Part shown: positions 3,008 through 6,773 of the stretch, one piece after another | Numbering within the stretch: the stretch's first letter is position 1 | Layout: each line of letters starts with the position of its first letter | From: Gemmatimonadota bacterium | Lineage (GTDB): Bacteria; GCA-2686955 | Assembly (NCBI GenBank): GCA_002686955.1 | Contig: NYZA01000124.1 | Span: forward strand, 1 to 6,773 | Length of the DNA stretch: 6,773 nt | Direction: 5' to 3' | Translations under genes and position numbers: made by a program | The notes under the pieces: model-generated | What the model was told of the DNA's origin: nothing | Databases searched by the model: none | What the model saw: only the letters and a program-made list of their open reading frames with translations

Positions 3008-4093
3008 TCAGCCCCCTCCCCCCATCCAGACTGTTTTCTCCCCCCACGGCCCTCCGAGCAGGCGACCGACCGCGAATCCACCGCTTCCGCTTCCCAGCAT
3101 CTCGATCTTGGACGCGGCCGAGATCCGCGCGATCTCCGCGGCCGGGCGGCGTCCCAGCGCGACCAGGGTTTTGGGGCGGGCGCGCTCGACGATCGAGGCG
3201 ATCAGGCGGTCGGTCGCCGGTCCCCAAGCGTCGGACTCGACAACGAGACCAAGGCGATCGCCGCTGTGAACGACCGGCGCTAGCTCGCCCACACCCAGCC
3301 ACCGGAGCTCCCTCAGCGGCCGCGGCACCGCGTCACCGGCCCCCTCCCGCAGCACCAGCACCGGCCCCTCGGGCAGCTCGCGGGCCGAGGGCCGGAGCGC
3401 GCCGCCGAGGGTCTCCGCGAGCGCCCAGCCCAAGGCCCGCGTGCCGGCGAAAACCCGAGGCGTGCCGTGGGCGCGCGGCCTCAGCGCGGCCTCGACCACG
3501 CGCAGCAGATCGCCCATCGCTTCGGCATCGCAGATCGGCAGCCGCGTGCGCCGGCTCCAGGCCCGCCCCAGACGCCGCGCCAGGCCCGGGCCGCGAACGG
3601 TCGCCAGCCGCACGATCTCGGGGTGGAGCCAGGTGCCGCCGGTGGCCCCCTGAACCTGCCGCACCAACGAGGAATGGCGCATGCCGCCCGGCAGATGGTC
3701 CCCGCGGCGCATCTGAACCGCGTTTTCGGTCGTGTAGCCCCGGGCGGGAAGGGCGGGCGCGATCAACCCGCAACGCGCGCCGACGCCCAAGATCGCGCCG
3801 AGCGTCGCCGCCGCCGGGAAATGGACCAGATCGGGATCGGTCCCCACAATCAAGACCTCGGCCCCCGCCGCGACATAAGCCCTCGCCCGCACCCCGAAGA
3901 GCCTCAGAATCTCCTCCTCATCGAGCCCGGCGGGCTCGATCAGCTCCACGTCGGTCTCCGCGGCGCCCCGGGCAGCGGTAAGCGCCACGCTCAGAGTCCA
4001 CCCCCGATCCACGAAAGGCGCGGCGACCGCGGCGGCCTCCGGCAGATCGGACGCGAGGATGCCGATCTTCGGCTTGTTCGATCTCGGATGCAC
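3008..4093 (-). CDS. Diverged four-carbon acid sugar kinase (DUF1537)-like protein
   Basis: This 361-residue protein looks like a distant member of the DUF1537/four-carbon acid sugar kinase fold (OtnK-type enzymes, which use ATP to phosphorylate tetronate-like sugars). Matching landmarks, in family order, are IGILASDLPEAAAVA (10-24), GLIAPALPARGYTTENAVQM (109-128), LPICDAEAMGDLL (185-197), VFAGTRALGWALAETLG (214-230) and a glycine-rich tail. Length fits, if slightly short. Several hallmark residues are altered: the usual ADDLTGA reads ASDLPEA, the usual DSTLRG region reads TDPDLVHF (85-92), the usual PAFPxxGR reads PALPARGY, the nucleotide-site GG(D/E)T region reads LGRRPAAE (313-320), and the terminal KSGxFG region reads TVWMGGGG. 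It may therefore be a non-kinase relative. The GTG at 4093 is preferred over the GTG at 4099 because TAGGAT (4105-4100) puts AGGA 7 bases before 4093. It diverges from aroC across about 90 bases with no clear promoter. The gene call is stronger than the family assignment. Confidence 0.7.
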   Translation of the reverse strand: MHPRSNKPKIGILASDLPEAAAVAAPFVDRGWTLSVALTAARGAAETDVELIEPAGLDEEEILRLFGVRARAYVAAGAEVLIVGTDPDLVHFPAAATLGAILGVGARCGLIAPALPARGYTTENAVQMRRGDHLPGGMRHSSLVRQVQGATGGTWLHPEIVRLATVRGPGLARRLGRAWSRRTRLPICDAEAMGDLLRVVEAALRPRAHGTPRVFAGTRALGWALAETLGGALRPSARELPEGPVLVLREGAGDAVPRPLRELRWLGVGELAPVVHSGDRLGLVVESDAWGPATDRLIASIVERARPKTLVALGRRPAAEIARISAASKIEMLGSGSGGFAVGRLLGGPWGEKTVWMGGGG

Positions 4094-4100
4094 CCGCACA

Positions 4101-4186: not shown

Positions 4187-5272
4187 ATGAGCTCCCCCTT
4201 CGGCCGCCTCTTCCGCATCACCACCTGGGGCGAATCCCACGGGGGCGGGATCGGTGTAGTCGTCGACGGTTGCCCCCCGGGAATCGTTCTCGACCTCGAC
4301 GCGATTCAGGCCGAGCTCGATCGCCGGCGCCCCGGCCGGAGCAAGCTCGCCTCGGCCCGGCAGGAGGCCGACCGGCTCACCATCCTCTCCGGGCTCCACG
4401 AAGGCCGCACCCTCGGATCGCCGATCGCCATCTCGGTCGCCAACACCGACGCCCGCCCCGGCGCCTACGAGCATCTGCGCGACCTCTACCGCCCCTCCCA
4501 CGGCGACTACAGCCACGAAGCGAAGTACGGCCTGCGCGACTGGCGGGGTGGTGGACGCGCCAGCGCCCGCGAGACCGTCGGCCGCGTCGCCGCGGGCGCC
4601 ATCGCCCGCCAGCTCCTCACCGAGCGATGCGGCGTCGAGATCGTCGCCCGGGGCGAGCAGCTCGCCGGCATCGACGCATCGCTCCCCGATCCCGCGAGCA
4701 TCGACCGCGCCACCGTCGAGTCGACCCCCGTGCGCTGCCCCGATCCCGCCGCCGCCGCCCGAATGATCGAGCGGATCGAGGCCGCCCGCGCCGAAGGGAA
4801 CTCCCTCGGTGGAATCATCGCCACCCGCGCCGGCGGCCTCCCCGCCGGCTGGGGTGACCCGGTCTTCGATAAGCTCGACGCCCTGCTCGCCCACGCCATG
4901 CTCTCCATCCCGGCCTGCAAAGGGTTCGACCTCGGCTCCGGATTCGCCGGAACCCGAATGACCGGCGCCGACCACAACGACGCATTCGTCATGGAGGGCG
5001 ACCGCGTGCGCACCCGCACCAACCGCTCCGGCGGCGTCCAGGCCGGAATCTCGAACGGCGAACCCCTCCTCTTCCGCTCCGCCTTCAAGCCCACGCCGAC
5101 CATCCGCAAGGAGCAGGACACCGTGGACCGGCGGGGCAACGCCGTCAAGCTCAGCGCGCATGGCCGCCACGATCCCTGCGTGCTCCCCCGCGCCGTCCCG
5201 ATAGTCGAGGCGATGACCGCCCTGGTCCTCGCGGACTGCTACCTGCGACAGCTGGCGGTGGACCGGCGTTAG
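4187..5272 (+). CDS. aroC: Chorismate synthase
   Basis: This 361-residue protein converts 5-enolpyruvylshikimate-3-phosphate to chorismate with reduced FMN, the last common step before aromatic amino acids, folate and quinones. All family signatures are present: [18 protein letters not shown] near the N-terminus (15-32, with the conserved His at 18), [14 protein letters not shown] (102-115, His105 expected to be catalytic), [20 protein letters not shown] (121-140), GADHNDAF (260-267), [14 protein letters not shown] (280-293), FKPTPTI (300-306) and [19 protein letters not shown] (325-343). Length matches the usual 350-390. The protein is cytoplasmic and normally a tetramer. The ATG at 4187 places the first motif at the standard distance; an AGG lies at 4172-4174 and a GGAG further up at 4163-4166. 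It is divergent from the sugar-kinase-like gene, and its TAG stop overlaps the stop of the convergent gene at 5269. No other shikimate genes are in view. The coding strand prefers C over G at third positions, opposite to the TPR and Nudix genes. Confidence 0.98.
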
Positions 5273-6090
5273 AAAAGCTCTTCGTCCGCCACCGCGGTCG
5301 AAATCTCGCCGACGATCCGCGAAAGCTCATCGAGCCCGTCGAGAAGAACCGTGCCCGGATAGAGCAGATTGCGCGCATCGACGTCGTAGATCCGCTCCTC
5401 GCGCACCGCCCGCAGATCGTCCCAGCCGGGCCGATCGAACACCTTCTCCCAATCGTGGTCGCCATCGGCCGCGATCCACGAGAGGATGATCGCGTCGGGA
5501 TCGCGGCGCTGCAGGTCGGCGATGTCGACGATTCGGCTGGCGTCGGAGTCCCCCCGCTGCTCGGCGAAAGGATCCATCCCCCCGACGAACTCGCACATCT
5601 GGCGCACCCACTCCGGCGCGAAGGCCACCGGCTTGAGCTGCGTCTCGACATAGAGTGAAGGACGGGCCGGCAGCTCACGCGCCTTGCGCTGACAGCGCCT
5701 CACATCGGTCTGAAAACGCTTGACCAGCTCTTCGGCCGTCTCTTTCGCGTCGAGAAGCCAGCCGAGCATGCTGATATTGCGCAGAATATCGTCCCACGTC
5801 ACCGGATTCAGCGAAACGACATTGAAATGGCGCGAGACGAGCTCGCACATCATCTGCTGCGAACAATGGGCAGCGGTCAGCACCAGATCGGGCCGAATCT
5901 TCTCCATCATCTCGTAGCGCGGGTAGTTCAGCCCCCCCATGGAGGGCAGCTCGAGATCGACAACACGATCGCCGATCTCGGGGATCTTGCGGCAGTACGC
6001 GGTGACGCCGCAGAGCCATTGCTCGCGCCCGAGGGAGAAGACAAGATCGGTGCAGCTGGGCTCCAGCGAGATGATGCGAGGTGTGGCCAT
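5269..6090 (-). CDS. BtuF-like cobalamin/metal-chelate-binding protein, no signal peptide
   Basis: This 273-residue protein has the fold of helical-backbone periplasmic binding proteins such as BtuF, which bind vitamin B12 or iron chelates. Landmarks are [18 protein letters not shown] (4-21; family form RIVSLxPSxTEixfaLG), LCGVTAYC (26-33), [20 protein letters not shown] (50-69), [20 protein letters not shown] (91-110), a long linking helix (about 115-140), [15 protein letters not shown] (157-171) and [13 protein letters not shown] (193-205). There is no signal sequence or lipobox, so it is probably cytoplasmic; the upstream extension of the frame to 6414 does not supply one either. Similar leaderless proteins are annotated as cobalamin-binding proteins in other bacteria. 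No permease or ATPase gene is adjacent, so transport is not supported here. The ATG at 6090 begins exactly at the first strand and has GGAG (6104-6101) 10 bases upstream. Its stop overlaps that of aroC in the four bases TTAG. Ligand identity is inferred from family only. Confidence 0.85.
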
Positions 6091-6384: not shown

Positions 6385-6420
6385 CTCAGGGTCCGCGTAA
6401 GAATAGCTTGTCATTTTGGC
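6385..6420 (+). repeat. Left terminal inverted repeat with flanking CTCAG
   Basis: The arm 6388-6416 matches the reverse complement of 6540-6568 at 28 of 29 positions (T6398 against G6558). After one extra T (6417), GGC at 6418-6420 also matches. CTCAG at 6385-6389 recurs in the same orientation at 6567-6571. Confidence 0.9.
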
Positions 6421-6566
6421 GCCCAGATGTGCTGCTGATCTGGTCGATCGCCGATCTTCGAAACCGCAGGAACAGCAAAGCTATTTCGAGGATTTCGGAG
6501 GTCGGCGATCGGCCGGAGACGTGGTGCGGATGGGATGCCAAATGACAAGCTATTCTTGCGCGGACC
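6390..6566. mobile_element. MITE-like or structured-RNA element with nested inverted repeats
   Basis: A 177-bp unit is bounded by inverted arms beginning GGTCCGCG and flanked by direct CTCAG copies (6385-6389 and 6567-6571), as expected for a 5-bp target duplication. Because CTCAG is itself nearly palindromic, the boundary could instead be GGGTCC with a TCA duplication. It encodes no transposase and no convincing protein, so a non-autonomous transposable element is the simplest reading. A second, inner inverted repeat (6439-6463 with 6493-6517) makes most of the unit foldable into one long hairpin. Each arm also carries an outward-facing ATG giving MTSYSxADP, which creates spurious ORF starts at 6414 (minus) and 6542 (plus). 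The family is not recognised, and structural RNA is the main alternative. Confidence 0.55.
6439..6517 (+). repeat. Inner inverted repeat / long stem inside the element
   Basis: Bases 6439-6463 pair with 6493-6517 over 25 positions. Of these, 21 are Watson-Crick and four (T6441-G6515, T6444-G6512, T6455-G6501, T6458-G6498) become U-G wobbles in a plus-strand transcript. The loop is 29 bases (6464-6492). On the minus strand the same positions would be C-A mismatches, so plus-strand RNA is the better-folding form. Confidence 0.7.
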
Positions 6567-6571
6567 CTCAG
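6537..6571 (-). repeat. Right terminal inverted repeat with flanking CTCAG
   Basis: This is the reverse-complement partner of the left arm, matching over 6540-6568 with one difference and extended by GCC at 6537-6539. The arm ends in CTCAG (6567-6571), 8 bases from the stop codon of the partial ATPase-like gene. Confidence 0.9.
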
Positions 6572-6579
6572 GTTCGAGT

Positions 6580-6773
6580 CTACGCTCGCATCAGCCTCAC
6601 GGACCTCTCCGCCGGACTGGTCGCCTCCTCGAACACCGTACGCTCCTCGATCGGCGCCGCCGCACTCCGCCGATCGAAAACCACAAGCACACCGGTGTCG
6701 AGCCCGAGGCGGTCGAGATAGCCGTCGAGCTGCGCGAGCCCCTTCGACAGCGGGTCCTTCTCGCCATCTCGCC
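6580..6773 (-). CDS. C-terminus of an AAA-type ATPase / PD-(D/E)XK nuclease-like protein (partial)
   Basis: A minus-strand frame enters from the right edge and ends at TAG (6582-6580), giving 63 complete codons. The peptide includes KDPLSKGLAQLDGYLDRLG, then LDTGVLVVFDRR, IEERTVFEEATSP and a final LMRA. This matches the very characteristic tail (GLxQLDxYLDRLGLDxGVLVIFDRR...TxFEEA...LRA) of a large bacterial family annotated as ATP-binding or AAA-ATPase-like proteins with a C-terminal PD-(D/E)XK nuclease-like domain, often present in many copies per genome. In that family the E-x-K active-site strand lies shortly upstream of this segment, so it falls outside the window. The biological role of the family is not firmly established; defence or mobile-element links have been proposed. 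The inverted-repeat element begins 8-13 bases beyond the stop. Confidence 0.8.
   Translation of the reverse strand, partial: RDGEKDPLSKGLAQLDGYLDRLGLDTGVLVVFDRRSAAAPIEERTVFEEATSPAERSVRLMRA

Follow-up and report, generated by a model that had tools for sequence, protein, structure and literature searches.

A compact palindromic segment lies near one end of the window, by which we mean the whole 6,773-nucleotide stretch of Gemmatimonadota contig NYZA01000124.1 that was analysed. This raises the question of whether the segment is a mobile element and, if so, what moves it and whether its folded interior is more than passive filler.

Architecture of the Window Element

A preliminary description, made from the letters alone, had pointed to near-perfect terminal arms and a second, 25-bp inverted repeat between them, with no credible ORF inside. 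Each of these was borne out by repeat searching and by an open reading frame check of the element (Table 1). The terminal arms together with their flank extend over 41 nt at 85% identity, and the inner inverted repeat sits within a 38-nt arm pair of 74% identity. The terminal and inner repeats form a single continuous hairpin spanning the element, of which the inner repeat is the upper part. The predicted fold of 6385-6571 has an energy of -131.9 kcal/mol (z = -17), and 0 of 200 shuffles folded as well. An Rfam search of the element returned no family at gathering score; miRNA-like matches were rejected as they fell far under that score. The element has the features of a MITE, being short (within about 70-300 bp) and non-coding, with terminal inverted repeats of 15-30 bp, many dispersed copies and target duplications.

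Table 1. Positions of the element, its repeats and its neighbouring genes in the window.
Feature	Position	Strand	Evidence or remark
MITE, 179 bp, ISAzo13-type ends	6389..6567	+	55 paired own-genome copies; 32 full-length aligned
Left target-site duplication TCA (target CTCAG)	6386..6388		3-bp duplication in 28/55 copies, 4 bp in none
Right target-site duplication TCA	6568..6570		Flank comparison among copies
Left terminal inverted repeat, begins GGGTCCGCGYAAGAATA	6389..6418	+	28/30 vs right arm; outermost 17 bases common to several phyla
Right terminal inverted repeat	6538..6567	-	28/30 vs left arm
Inner inverted repeat, left arm	6439..6463	+	Repeat search, folding, pair comparison among copies
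Inner inverted repeat, right arm	6493..6517	-	Repeat search, folding, pair comparison among copies
15-bp direct repeat, left copy, consensus AGATGTGCCGCAGAT	6425..6439	+	Comparison with 87-bp class
15-bp direct repeat, right copy, consensus AGATGTGGTGCAGAT	6517..6531	+	Comparison with 87-bp class
C-terminal part of gene reading towards element	6580..6771	-	Stop codon 6580-6582, 9 bp beyond right duplication
Periplasmic binding protein gene (Peripla_BP_2)	5269..6090	-	Starts at 6090; downstream of 6580..6771 gene, same strand

The element is located between the 3′ end of one minus-strand gene and the start of the Peripla_BP_2 gene. Elsewhere in the window, a 363-aa ORF at 3008-4099 (minus strand) gave only a sub-threshold match to SBD_N. 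Across the host genome, about 14 of 31 adjacent genes have their 3′ end no more than 20 bp from an element according to approximate gene calling, which also supplied the gene context of the other copies, as if insertion at stop codons (a CTAAG-like target) were tolerated or preferred.

Copies, Target Site and Size Classes in the Host Genome

The host genome is a draft of 4.28 Mb in 270 contigs and is 84.5% complete. A first-pass search for the element gave 40 scored places, while a 30-base end pattern matched 100 times and a 20-base end pattern 145 times, with 0 matches to the reversed control pattern. Both ends were present in 55 copies of 40-180 bp overall (32 at 176-180 bp, one of 151 bp, several of 86-90 and 98-99 bp, and three of 40 bp); unpaired single ends, frequently at contig ends, were many more than these. 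The preliminary description had proposed a non-autonomous element mobilised in trans, with further copies to be looked for in the host, and had set mobility against a conserved single-copy stretch. The copies found here, their target duplications and their size variants all favour mobility, as does the only sister-genus genome compared, which has neither copies nor an ISAzo13 gene. Searches of plasmid and phage collections found nothing matching the element, and a viral contig contained one exact end match without a paired partner.

Identical 3-bp flanks were found in 28 of the 55 copies, as against a mean of 10.2 and a maximum of 20 in 2000 shuffles, and a 4-bp direct repeat flanked none of them. 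The duplicated triplets were mainly TAA, TTA and TCA, the base preceding the duplication was often C and the base following it often G, and this flank pattern defines the target as CTNAG, of which TNA is duplicated. The flanks of the window copy, CTCA and TCAG, are consistent with such a target. The flanking CTCAG copies noted previously do stand at 6385-6389 and 6567-6571, but the duplication comprises 3 bp (TCA) and not 5 bp, since each CTCAG includes one base of the element itself: the element starts with the final G on the left and finishes with the initial C on the right. The other 27 of the 55 copies had no perfect duplication, which is what age or rearrangement would be expected to cause. 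Both orientations were represented (17 and 15 copies).

The 87-bp copies correspond to the full element minus 92 bp, that is, one of the 15-bp direct repeats plus everything between the two. Since junctions of both direct-repeat types occur in this class (C41 and C252 are examples), two or more separate origins of the deletion are probable. A target duplication of their own flanks several of the 87-bp copies. Given that this class is dispersed and lacks the inner repeat, these duplications support the view, already advanced in the preliminary description, that the inner repeat would be dispensable for movement, unless the deletions post-date insertion at each site. Two of the 40-bp copies (L224 and L225, at C8:32786-32825 and C176:6984-7023) consist of the two ends back to back between perfect TAA duplications; they are possibly still mobile, or else a product of hairpin loss.

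Elements with the Same Ends in Other Phyla

Among the matches listed, the outermost bases, TNA GGGTYCGCGCAAGAATA, were exact in Acidobacteria, Nitrospinota, Nitrospirae, Planctomycetota, Lentisphaerae, Fermentibacteria and Proteobacteria. Most of the listed matches in other phyla were paired ends 151-274 bp apart, and among them 39 of 66 paired matches had identical 3-bp flanks, compared with 20.7 by shuffling. Elements of 157 to 240 bp in Acidobacteria, Nitrospinota, Planctomycetota and Sedimenticola have the ends, the TNA duplication and the full-length palindrome of the window element, but interiors that are mostly unrelated to it; by BLAST, the interior of the window element was shared only by copies in Desulfobacterales, Thermoanaerobaculales and Fermentibacteria. 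A further family, distinct in its interior and about 157 bp long (L157, L101, L122 and others), with the same ends and a conserved core of its own, ranges over Acidobacteria, Nitrospinota, Nitrospirae, Planctomycetota and Deltaproteobacteria.

Direct traces of movement came from two strains of Sedimenticola hydrogenitrophicus with 145-151 end matches each, whose elements are sister elements having the same ends and another interior than the window family. The sampled loci included three filled/empty pairs between the two strains (L187/L276, L278/L271 and L260/L181, filled site first), and each empty site contained a single TTA. The left duplication of L187 reads TCA, a one-base change, and at L278 a further 16 bp after the right duplication is missing from the empty site. 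These three pairs show transposition of elements with these ends. The empty sites foreseen in the preliminary description were thus recovered for sister elements, but the window copy has no demonstrable one, as the sister-genus genome is without copies.

ISAzo13-Type Ends and the Likely Mobiliser

The preliminary description had recognised no known IS family in the terminal sequence. Our comparison showed that the ends match those of ISAzo13-family elements, a family that makes 3-bp duplications (PMC10045372). Whole ISAzo13 elements with the same ends were found in Fermentibacteria (L196 441-2471, 2031 bp, duplication CTA), Acidobacteria (L198 532-2451, 1920 bp, duplication TTA) and Nitrospirae (L197 372-2270, 1899 bp, flanks TAA/TTA), and at L202, L204, L207 and L216 the right end lies 34-41 bp past the DDE domain. 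The last of these loci, also sampled as L098 from a Bryobacterales MAG, is a 1416-bp element with the same ends that encloses the start and the end of an ISAzo13 transposase; it is an internally deleted ISAzo13 element, intermediate between IS and MITE. In a Fermentibacteria MAG, the last 32 bases of the MITE L152 are identical at 30 of 32 positions to an end beside the ISAzo13 gene of L201, although this end, at a distance of 137 bp from the domain, could be an independent remnant. When ends were located de novo, without reference to the MITE, annotated plasmid ISAzo13 elements of Streptomyces, Nostoc and Mesorhizobium gave GGG or GGA starts and TTA or TAA duplications, with one unrelated solution scoring equally in Mesorhizobium; the top-ranked solutions for Microvirga and ISScl2 were not of this type. 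Beyond the ends, the element interior gave only one short weak match to ISAzo13 elements, in a coding region of L196, and so showed no derivation from an ISAzo13 element. An ISAzo13-derived interior is not needed for mobilisation in trans.

Three of the ISAzo13 elements, each from a different phylum, encode their transposase in two overlapping frames (L196:1440-1500, L198:1460-1500 and L197:1330-1370, minus strand): an N-terminal ORF of about 255 aa is followed by a DDE ORF, and a run of A immediately precedes the junction. The junction resembles those seen in programmed frameshifting or slippage.

The transposase itself was sought with the ISAzo13 profiles PF07592 and NF033519. ISAzo13 genes were detected with PF07592 in seven of 27 other carrier genomes; the remaining 20 (G041, G043, G044, G046, G048, G049, G051-G059, G062-G064, G066 and G067), including both Sedimenticola strains with visible movement, had no match to either profile. 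A full-length IS with shared ends, which the preliminary description had suggested seeking, thus exists in other genomes, but the host draft contains one broken ISAzo13 fragment only, without matching ends. Such absences weigh little against ISAzo13, since draft assemblies lose multi-copy ISs and the search covered only contigs of at least 3 kb. Among other candidates in the host genome, both PF01609 (IS4/IS5-type) loci are without these ends, and the gene beside a lone end at C17:57829 is not a transposase.

Two alternatives have to be weighed against mobilisation by ISAzo13. In most genomes the elements might instead be moved by transposases of some other, unrecognised family whose ends are the same, ISAzo13 merely sharing those ends, and this would account for the 20 of 27 carriers without a profile match, two of which are isolates with strain-specific insertions. 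In several phyla, however, it is ISAzo13 elements that carry such ends, spaced from the gene by a constant distance, and one long stretch in a carrier without ISAzo13, bounded by two ends 2.3 kb apart with matching duplications (L136), proved to be pnp between element remnants; we consider this alternative unlikely. The other possibility, an immobile host repeat such as a conserved regulatory RNA or terminator that is palindromic by chance, draws on the strong hairpin and on the many copies within 20 bp of gene 3′ ends. It is at odds with the size classes, the occurrence in both orientations and the absence from the sister genus, and the target duplications together with the strain-specific filled and empty sites of sister elements make it very unlikely.

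Together, these data indicate that the element is a MITE with ISAzo13-type ends, very probably cut out and inserted in trans by an ISAzo13-family DDE transposase at CTNAG-like sites. Its ends match those of autonomous transposons in other genomes and not in the host draft; ISAzo13 as the mobiliser in the host, and the cut-and-paste chemistry, are what we infer. Insertion duplicates 3 bp (TNA). In the proposed mechanism, the long hairpin interior is carried along, and deletion between the 15-bp direct repeats within it gives the shorter, still mobile 87-bp class.

Strand Bias of the Hairpin

The interior may not be wholly passive. Pairs in the hairpin were defined by aligning the consensus to its own reverse complement, so that both strands were treated alike, and changes were inferred by parsimony on a FastTree tree. 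On the window plus strand, the consensus inner stem has eight G-U pairs and one A-C pair. Changes from Watson-Crick pairs in the inner stem led to G-U in 52 cases and to A-C in 14 (p = 3e-6), and columns with G-U only numbered 20 versus 2 with A-C only (p = 1e-4). The end regions were unbiased, both in changes (34 versus 23, p = 0.18) and in columns (7 versus 2, p = 0.18). Both sides had changed in 26 pairs. The predicted fold of the plus strand reached -129.6 kcal/mol as compared to -95.6 kcal/mol for the minus strand, and in every one of the 32 copies, as in each of six relatives drawn from Desulfobacterales, other Deltaproteobacteria, Thermoanaerobaculales and Fermentibacteria, the better predicted fold was that of the plus strand. 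Mutational bias arising from replication or from adjacent genes is an unlikely cause, given that copies lie in both orientations and that the strand with the better fold shows no tendency to run in the same direction as transcripts entering from adjacent genes (5 versus 11).

The excess of G-U over A-C on one strand hints at selection for strand-specific folding. On this reading, a mobile MITE would have an interior under additional selection for the folding of one strand, whether at the RNA level or as single-stranded DNA; the benefit might, for instance, lie in withstanding or exploiting transcription of the source element. We consider this reading possible but rather unlikely, and the structured-RNA function put forward in the preliminary description is likewise putative. 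Against it, the copies are related, so that shared variants are not independent, and rare variants alone gave 19 G-U versus 10 A-C (p = 0.14). Another interior family had an unbiased inner stem (35 versus 24, p = 0.19), and both the lack of an Rfam match and the missing co-orientation with reading-in transcripts count in the same direction. The most economical reading of the bias is that source copies are selected for one-strand folding and individual inserted copies less so, with shared ancestry as the main reservation. That a lineage of MITEs with ISAzo13 ends has spread over several phyla with its interior kept by selection for the folding of one strand, be it RNA or single-stranded DNA, is in our judgement rather doubtful. 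If true, the transposase binding sites would not be the only functional part of this non-coding transposon, which would also carry a working nucleic-acid structure.

Comparison with Known Systems

The analysis assigns an abundant, unnamed repeat family to ISAzo13. The Sedimenticola strains offer natural filled and empty sites for testing this assignment, and the hairpin's strand bias hints, in a form open to testing, that the interior of a MITE can be more than passive filler. MITEs are a known kind of element; the ISAzo13 assignment and the spread over phyla appear to be undescribed in the literature searched, which covered few subscription journals and contained no report of ISAzo13 MITEs. 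As described in a review, the Chunjie MITE of Geobacter uraniireducens (178-235 bp, with terminal inverted repeats, direct repeats and many partial copies; PMC10969869) is like the window element in size, repeats and partial copies. The bcr1-bcr3 repeats of the Bacillus cereus group, which occur in transcribed regions (PMC3446304), are described as MITE-like and belong to a different host group. The ISAzo13 family (PF07592, NF033519) shares with the window element the GGG... ends with AATAAnTT and the 3-bp TNA duplication; in its ISs the right end follows the transposase domain by 32-41 bp, whereas the window element is 179 bp long and non-coding, and its likeness to the ISs found is confined to the ends.
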